Of a DNA stretch of 40,774 nt, positions 238-40,774 are shown one piece after another; the stretch's first letter is position 1, and every line of letters begins with the position of its first letter. The notes beneath the pieces are model-generated. The model was not told the DNA's origin. It worked only from the letters and a program-made list of their open reading frames with translations, and made no database searches. The stretch is taken from positions 1-40,774 of the forward strand of contig NZ_JAPYVU010000010.1 of the NCBI RefSeq assembly GCF_028276765.1, in the 5' to 3' direction. The position numbers and the translations under genes were made by a program. The DNA comes from Sulfurihydrogenibium sp. (GTDB lineage Bacteria; Aquificota; Aquificia; Aquificales; Hydrogenothermaceae).

Positions 238-345
238 TGAGGCTGTTCCAAAAATCCACACTGTCATCCTGAGGCCGTAAGGCCGAAGGATCTCATTTTT
301 AAATTTTATAAAAACCGATAATTTCTTACCCCAAGGTATAATCAA
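238..345. repeat. Dispersed palindromic repeat, copy in htpX/TusA gap
   Basis: Contains TGTTCCAAAA at 244-253, then GTCATCCTGAGG and a short GGCC-rich hairpin, then an AT-rich tail. The tail from about 287 to 345 closely resembles 33222-33275, so the similarity extends beyond the palindromic core. The sequence runs up to the stop codon of the minus-strand TusA-like gene and fills most of the convergent gap. It is noncoding. It belongs to the same family as the copies near 3545, 11000, 23012, 31653, 33128 and 40225. Confidence 0.75.
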
Positions 346-10984: not shown

Positions 10985-11190
10985 CTTTGCCATCCTGAGG
11001 CTGTAAAGCCATGTTCGGAATAACAAAAAATCTGAGATTCTTCGCTTCGCTCAGAATGACAGCATTAGACAACTTTGTCATCCTGAGGACGCAAGTCTGA
11101 AGGATCGCCTGTTTTAAAATAAAGAGATTCTTCACTTCGTTCAGAATGACAAATAAGGCTAAAATTCTTTGCCGGCTACAGAATGGCAAT
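10985..11190. repeat. Cluster of dispersed-repeat arms
   Basis: Several units in tandem: CATCCTGAGGCTG, GATTCTTCGCTTCGCTCAG, GTCATCCTGAGGACG and GATTCTTCACTTCGTTCAG, in alternating orientation so that adjacent arms can pair. The minus strand has an open frame of 71 codons containing VILNEVKNL and VILSEAKNL, which is simply the repeat translated. It separates the porin from the lipoprotein gene and could form strong mRNA hairpins if transcribed through. Confidence 0.75.
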
Positions 11191-31652: not shown

Positions 31653-31790
31653 AAGGGAGGTCCTTCGGACTAAAGTCCTCAGGATGACAGAAAATTGGTT
31701 GATAAATATCAGAAAAGAATAATCTTAATTGTAATTCTGCAGCCGGCGAAGAGCCTCCTACTTTTATTGAATTTTTCACGGGACATATAG
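31653..31790. repeat. Dispersed repeat after the ATPase operon
   Basis: GGTCCTTCGGACTAAAGTCC and TCAGGATGACAG form the reverse-oriented core, followed by ATTCTGCAGCCGGCGAAGAG and the AATTTTTCACGGGACATATAG tail also seen near 3900. It begins just past the operon's stop codon and could act as a transcript-ending hairpin. Confidence 0.6.
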
Positions 31791-40224: not shown

Positions 40225-40266
40225 TGAGGGTGTTCCAAAATTTTCGTAAGCTTACCTTTCCGTCAT
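40225..40266 (+). repeat. Left half of dispersed repeat, interrupted by IS110
   Basis: TGAGGGTGTTCCAAAA at 40225-40240, then a segment ending TTACCTTTCC, matches 3545-3584 nearly base for base. After GTCAT at 40262-40266 the match to the other copies (which continue CCTGAGG) stops and different sequence begins, so the repeat is interrupted here. The missing half is expected beyond the far end of the IS110 element, outside the window. Confidence 0.7.
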
Positions 40267-40327
40267 TGTATATTAAGTATACCAAAAATTTTTAAACTTT
40301 AAGAGAATAAGTTTTATAATAATTACA

Positions 40328-40500
40328 GACATGGGAGAAAAAAGGAAGGACAGATCAAGTTTCTGTCATTGGTCTTTTAAGACCGTTCAGGATGTTTTAG
40401 ACTGTCCTTCCTACAACTTCCTAAAGCCTGAATCAGAACATTAGGCTTTCAAGCCTGTATTGATTACGATGATAGGTTATCAGGAAGTTTCTCTCATGTC
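40328..40500 (+). ncRNA. Candidate IS110 bridge RNA
   Basis: A closing stem pairs 40328-40340 with 40488-40500 (13 bp with one G-U). Inside are two similar arms. Arm 1: stem AGGAAGGACAG/CTGTCCTTCCT (40343-40353 with 40402-40412), internal loop, cap hairpin GGTCT-TTTA-AGACC (40371-40384). Arm 2: stem CTTCCT/AGGAAG (40417-40422 with 40482-40487) plus AGCCT/AGGTT, internal loop, cap hairpin AGGCT-TTCA-AGCCT (40443-40456). Loop sequences match the flanking target and the element's own left end (see findings). This is the two-loop target/donor layout of bridge RNAs; folding is by eye. Confidence 0.8.
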
Positions 40501-40527
40501 AAGTATTTTATGAAAGGAGGTGCTTTT

Positions 40528-40774
40528 ATGAACAACTATAAAATTGTCGTAGGAGTAGATGTATCTAAAAAATCATTTACTGCAACAGTATTGTATGATA
40601 ACAAGAAAGAAACTTTTGAAGTTAAATCTGACCCAGTAGAGTTTGAGAAGAAAATTAAGCCTTATCTTAAAAAGTTTAAAAAGTCAGATATGCTTATCAT
40701 AATGGAGCATACAGGAGTTTATCATTTAAAGCTTGCTGATTATCTGTATGAAAATGACTATCAGGTAGCAGTTG
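40528..40774 (+). CDS. IS110-family transposase/recombinase, N-terminal part
   Basis: 82 codons are visible before the window ends. IVVGVDVSKKSF carries the first catalytic Asp (residue 11) of the DEDD RuvC-like domain, and IIMEHTGVYH the Glu (residue 60). GAAAGGAGG lies before the ATG. IS110 recombinases use a structured noncoding RNA to recognise donor and target DNA. The C-terminal serine domain is outside the window. Confidence 0.92.
   Translation, partial: MNNYKIVVGVDVSKKSFTATVLYDNKKETFEVKSDPVEFEKKIKPYLKKFKKSDMLIIMEHTGVYHLKLADYLYENDYQVAV

Follow-up and report, generated by a model that had tools for sequence, protein, structure and literature searches.

Why the mobile element at the right-hand end of the window (the whole 40,774-nucleotide stretch of DNA analysed here, from the hot-spring bacterium Sulfurihydrogenibium sp.) interrupts a dispersed repeat, and what directed it there, are the questions raised by this locus. 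A preliminary description had proposed that the element encodes a bridge RNA whose target guides match its own insertion site, and our analysis supports that interpretation. With a probability of about 0.95, we consider the element to be an IS110-group insertion sequence, close to IS621 in sequence and layout, whose bridge RNA directs insertion into a dispersed hairpin repeat. Its copies were compared in the window's genome (G000) and in the closest relatives carrying the element, G004 (one contig of 1,838,442 bases) and G005. Positions 40262-40774 of the window make up the left part of the element, with the following landmarks.

40262-40266, plus strand: retained left half of the target repeat with the core (GTC-AT); the insertion point comes next, and G004 and G005 have the orthologous site empty, as GTCAT^CCTGAGGATG
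40267-40290, plus strand: left end of the element, placed by flank-blind end searches and the circle junction
40528-40773, plus strand: N-terminal 82 amino acids of an IS110 DEDD recombinase (PF01548, E=9e-10), about 328 amino acids long in complete copies

The contig end interrupts the recombinase gene, which in the window copy is known from its N-terminal 82 amino acids. The complete element is about 1.27 kb in size. A complete G004 copy has 1,266 bases between its cores and a gene of 328 amino acids, with 262 bases upstream (counted from the core to the start codon) and 17 downstream (counted from the stop codon). The full-length relative L075, an intact copy whose recombinase lies at L075:668-1651, matched both PF01548 and PF02371, and its protein matched the IS621 recombinase structure 8wt6 with E=3e-35; the counterparts of the IS621 catalytic residues D11, E60, D102, D105 and S241 in L075 are D, E, D, D and S. 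The recombinases of IS621 and ISCro4 are the nearest solved relatives. The domain order is that of the IS110 group, a DEDD RuvC-like N-terminal domain (PF01548) followed by a C-terminal PF02371 domain with the conserved serine. The layout is also that of the group: the gene is preceded by a long non-coding left end that carries a structured two-loop RNA. The predicted circle junction, ACATAGAACATCGTATATT, contains the ATA...TAT subterminal inverted repeat of IS110-group elements (PMC11208160); judged by eye, terminal inverted repeats and other longer repeats are absent. Assignment to the IS1111 group was rejected, since that group expects a long downstream region and long subterminal inverted repeats, and here the non-coding region lies upstream, with 17 nucleotides downstream of the gene. 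Among 112 genomes of the order, carriers at E<=1e-30 were three Sulfurihydrogenibium genomes, each of its own species, and no distant relatives beyond these were found for a wider comparison of guides and targets.

The target is represented within the window by unoccupied copies.

263-273, plus strand: unoccupied target repeat GTCATCCTGAG; further copies at 11077-11087 (plus strand) and 31678-31688 (minus strand)

With at most one mismatch allowed, the window contains 8 copies of GTCATCCTGAG, where 0.33 would be expected, and exact GTCATYCTGAG sites number 208 in G000, 294 in G004 and 239 in G005. Each genome contains hundreds of copies of the dispersed repeat, a hairpin (ATYCT-GA-...-GA-AGRAT) whose two arms show matching changes; the partner of position 10 (Y) is the R of AAGRATC. 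A RAYT-type Y1 transposase (PF01797) was absent from G000, and the repeat may be called REP-like by hairpin shape alone.

To avoid bias, the element ends were searched in the three genomes blind to their flanks. More than 100 ends lay at the target site across the three species, with 53 of 61 left ends following GTCAT and 54 of 63 right ends preceding YCTGAR. By genome, left ends stood after GTCAT[CT]G in 15 of 22 cases in G000, 26 of 26 in G004 and 12 of 13 in G005, and right ends stood before T[CT]CTGAR in 16 of 22, 24 of 25 and 14 of 16 cases, respectively. Most exceptions were mutated or shortened target sites (GCCAT, CTAAG, TCTGAG, CTAGG); the sole right-end exception in G004, which is clipped by the locus end, reads CCTTAG. 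Degraded variants aside, the expectation that other copies would interrupt the same GTCAT/YCTGAG site was thus confirmed in all three genomes. Since the flanks beyond the repeat fell into 46 distinct left clusters and 58 distinct right clusters, the insertions appear mostly independent. Could the shared flanks instead have arisen without targeted insertion, through duplication of the repeat together with the insertion sequence or through homologous recombination? A few copies do share long flanks, and recombination between copies of so abundant a repeat is likely; against the many distinct flank clusters and the empty orthologous sites in two relatives, however, we judge this explanation extremely improbable.

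Those empty sites (L283 and L284), which G004 and G005 have at the locus orthologous to that of the window copy, read GTCAT^CCTGAGG, with an uninterrupted GTCATCCTGAGGATG followed by tRNA-Ser. The flanks of the insertion form one continuous empty site in both relatives, as in scarless insertion. Contig C51 of G000 begins inside the element and runs through its right end into CCTGAGGCTG, followed by the same tRNA-Ser(UGA) and flanking sequence. On synteny of this one tRNA-Ser, with about 320 extra bases in between, C51 very probably continues the window copy. A right flank resembling CCTGAGG had been predicted in the preliminary description; the CCTGAGG found on C51 therefore confirms it, the link to the window being one of synteny.

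Several copies were rearranged or incomplete. At least six G004 copies (L078-L081, L085, L088) contain, inside the recombinase gene, a second transposon that is of the IS256/mutator type as judged from its translation; the insertions lie at differing positions within one short stretch of the gene, as if at a hotspot. At L147 (G004:884105, 886649), two left ends point in opposite directions and no right ends lie close by; two right ends are similarly arranged at L149 (G004:975207, 979893). Both are possibly traces of recombination between element copies. At L158 (G000:C8 18826, 19864), the same left flank adjoins each of two element fragments that lie about 1 kb from one another, which suggests a local duplication. 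Short copies consisting of a left end only in G000 were considered as guide-only mobile elements, a notion that was rejected because their ends and flanks show degraded or contig-truncated copies.

We then asked what the left end could encode. The predicted RNA has the following parts.

40328-40500, plus strand: two-armed bridge RNA, with an outer stem of GACATGGGAGAAA (40328-40340) and TTTCTCTCATGTC (40488-40500)
40344-40411, plus strand: target-binding arm, with stem GGAAGGACAG/CTGTCCTTCC, an internal loop and the apical hairpin GGTCTTTTAAGACC (40371-40384), from fold and consensus
40415-40489, plus strand: donor-binding arm, with stem AACTTCCT/AGGAAGTT, an internal loop and an apical hairpin at about 40441-40456, from fold and consensus
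40294-40314, plus strand: possible weak 5' stem-loop (AAACTT...AAGTTT), read off the sequence

Positions 40320-40527 folded with z = -7.4 into an outer stem and two arms, and the RNAalifold consensus of 28 copies had the identical two-arm architecture. No compensatory base changes supporting the stems occurred in these 28 copies, which are too alike to provide covariation; the argument for the stems is therefore one of stability and known architecture only. The 5' stem-loop was missing from the consensus. Among the covariance models of Rfam, no family reached its gathering score, and a match with E=0.79 was at chance level.

Within the internal loops we located four guides and two candidate handshake guides, to be read against the donor sequence AACATAGAACATCGTATATT and the target sequence TGTCATCCTGAG.

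40364-40369, plus strand: left target guide TGTCAT, identical to the top strand of the target; the bases just upstream vary among copies
40387-40393, plus strand: right target guide TCAGGAT, whose reverse complement is ATCCTGA; the T at 40386 can wobble-pair with the next G
40435-40441, plus strand: left donor guide AGAACAT, with the same sequence as the element's right end, ...TTTAACATAGAACAT
40465-40470, plus strand: right donor guide TACGAT, reverse complement of the ATCGTA that most copies have at the core and left end
40394-40395, plus strand: candidate target-loop handshake guide GT, pairing with donor C7 and A6 if the core is taken as AT (rule from PMC11208158)
40471-40472, plus strand: candidate donor-loop handshake guide GA, pairing with target C7 and T6 if the core is taken as AT (rule from PMC11208158)

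Loop 1 corresponds to the target and loop 2 to the donor, and in each loop the left guide is like the top strand, the right guide is complementary to it, and the two overlap at the core. This is the arrangement of one guide per strand with overlap at CAT that had been taken as the logic of IS110 elements, and it is the arrangement of IS621 (PMC11208160). In the left end of the window copy, T replaces C at the site of the right donor guide, which gives a G-U pair. When positions 40281-40510 were shuffled 200,000 times, no shuffle contained all four guide motifs, and three of the four came together in 5. The handshake bases fit the IS621 pattern, and their pairing is predicted from that fit.

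The segments on which the preliminary description had been built, TTTCCGTCATT (40257-40267), TTTCTGTCATT (40360-40370) and TTCAGGATG (40386-40394), lie exactly at these positions, and the pairing proposed between the right loop and the sequence that follows GTCAT in the dispersed repeats is that of TCAGGAT with ATCCTGA. The match of 11 nucleotides between left loop and left flank was upheld in part. GTCAT occupies 40262-40266, and the final T of the flank 11-mer (40267) lies beyond the core, at a position that in most copies is a C belonging to the element. The outer four bases of the left guide (-4 to -1) vary (TTCT, GTTT, GACT, CTTT, TATT) among copies that all use the same site. Their agreement with the flanks was weak (shuffle p=0.02 when all copies were pooled, 0.11 within genomes), and the sequence upstream of unoccupied repeats is similarly rich in T. 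Because the outer bases vary without demonstrably tracking the flanks, the match reads as (T)GTCAT; the outer TTTC and the final T have no demonstrable specificity, and a role of the outer bases as specificity determinants is not supported.

The donor side and the circle junction, like the co-variation of guide and target presented below, go beyond the preliminary description. In the junction, the order of right end, core and left end gives AGAA-CAT-CGTATATT, with the core probably the AT inside the shared CAT. TATATT at 40269-40274 in the left end would be a -10 box, and TTGACA in the right end would complete the promoter with a spacer of 17; the joined ends thus read TTGACA-N17-TATATT, as in a sigma70-like promoter.

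If the RNA selects the target, the two might be seen to change together. The right target guide differs among the species, with GGATG or GAATG: G005 copies have mostly CAGAATG, young G000 copies CAGGATG, and G004 copies mainly CAGGATG and in some cases CTGTAGAATG. At occupied sites, the ratio of C to T at position 10 was 2:12 in G005, 13:5 in G000 and 18:6 in G004 (G005 versus the other two genomes, p=1.3e-4), compared with an unoccupied background of 125:114, 82:126 and 158:136, respectively. The shift from each genome's own background followed the prediction of its common guide (p=0.006 in G005, 0.011 in G000 and 0.054 in G004). Per copy, CAGGATG was found with 11 C and 3 T, the T giving a G-U pair, and CAGAATG with 0 C and 4 T (p=0.011). 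The right guide CTGTAGAATG, longer by one base and present in five paired G004 copies, fitted the flanks less well and, with 4 C and 1 T, did not track position 10. A right target guide longer by one base, CTGTAG[AG]ATG, was observed in all three species (L086, L145, L146, L152, L154, L157, L162, L210), and the usual target fitted it poorly.

These data bear on whether the recombinase itself might recognize the hairpin repeat, the likeness of the RNA to target and ends being incidental or only regulatory. The target is indeed a hairpin repeat, and recognition of REPs by the transposase has been proposed for IS3-family elements (PMC1525189). However, each half of the target and each half of the donor is matched by a separate guide, with order and strand as in IS621, and the target allele moves with the guide between species; we therefore hold direct recognition to be very unlikely and favour guidance by the bridge RNA.

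Position 10 was also examined against its partner in the hairpin. A mismatch was present at 8 of 48 occupied sites versus 6 of 213 unoccupied repeats (p=0.001), in a test that was devised after the data had been seen, involves small numbers and covers the right flanks of L074-L212 and the window copy with L299. Where the copy's own guide is known, the deviating base agreed with it in 5 of 6 cases, as compared by hand. Copies may have converted one another, bases may have been carried over at recombination, or constraint may have been relaxed. A simple swap of the position 10 base between element and target, checked by hand, does not fit most copies. Only tentatively, and with more doubt than confidence, do we read the drift from CAGGATG to CAGAATG or the reverse, together with the drift in target use, as natural stepwise retargeting of one IS110 lineage in three congeneric species, in which the base just to the right of the core additionally changed upon insertion or later, often so as to fit the guide better.

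If the element is active at present, its cycle might run as follows. The left end would encode the bridge RNA upstream of the DEDD/Ser recombinase. An excision circle would join right end, core and left end and so create the TTGACA-N17-TATATT promoter, from which bridge RNA and recombinase would be transcribed. In the presumed complex of RNA and protein, the donor-binding loop (AGAACAT; TACGAT) would recognize the junction of the circle. Its counterpart, the target-binding loop (TGTCAT; TCAGGAT), would recognize GTCAT-YCTGA within the 5' arm of the dispersed hairpin repeat. Recombination within the shared CAT would then insert the element there in a single orientation.

RNA-guided recombination by IS110 elements (PMC11208160, PMC11208158), the seekRNA with its natural reprogramming (PMC11187229) and the use of REPs as IS110 targets (PMC1525189) are established. 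In the papers searched on Sulfurihydrogenibium and insertion sequences, no description of the element was found, and a paper on Aquificales non-coding RNAs contained, by keyword, no mention of IS110 or transposases. The element provides an IS110 recombinase from a thermophile for which bridge RNA, target and donor are all predicted in full. Its roughly 60 natural insertions, with their guide variants, form a data set on which the wobble rules of the right guide, the importance of its outer bases in the left guide and the handshake pairing can be tested. With it, a REP-like repeat of Sulfurihydrogenibium joins the landing sites of IS110 elements.

Among known systems, ISPpu9, ISPpu10 and ISPa11 of the IS110 family likewise have all their listed copies in a palindromic repeat (PMC1525189), but in another repeat and host, and G000 lacks the Y1 (RAYT-type) transposase that is the usual partner of REPs. 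ISEc21, known for its seekRNA, has its target in a conserved stretch of the transposase genes of the IS3 family, whereas the Sulfurihydrogenibium element targets a dispersed hairpin. IS621 of Escherichia coli likewise encodes its bridge RNA in the left end, ahead of a recombinase equal in length, and shares the two-loop RNA, guides for both strands that overlap at the core, a promoter rebuilt at the RE-LE junction and palindromic repeats as target (PMC11208160, PMC11208158). The Sulfurihydrogenibium element differs from it in its guides and target (GTCAT^YCTGA) and in its core, which is probably AT in the shared CAT rather than CT.
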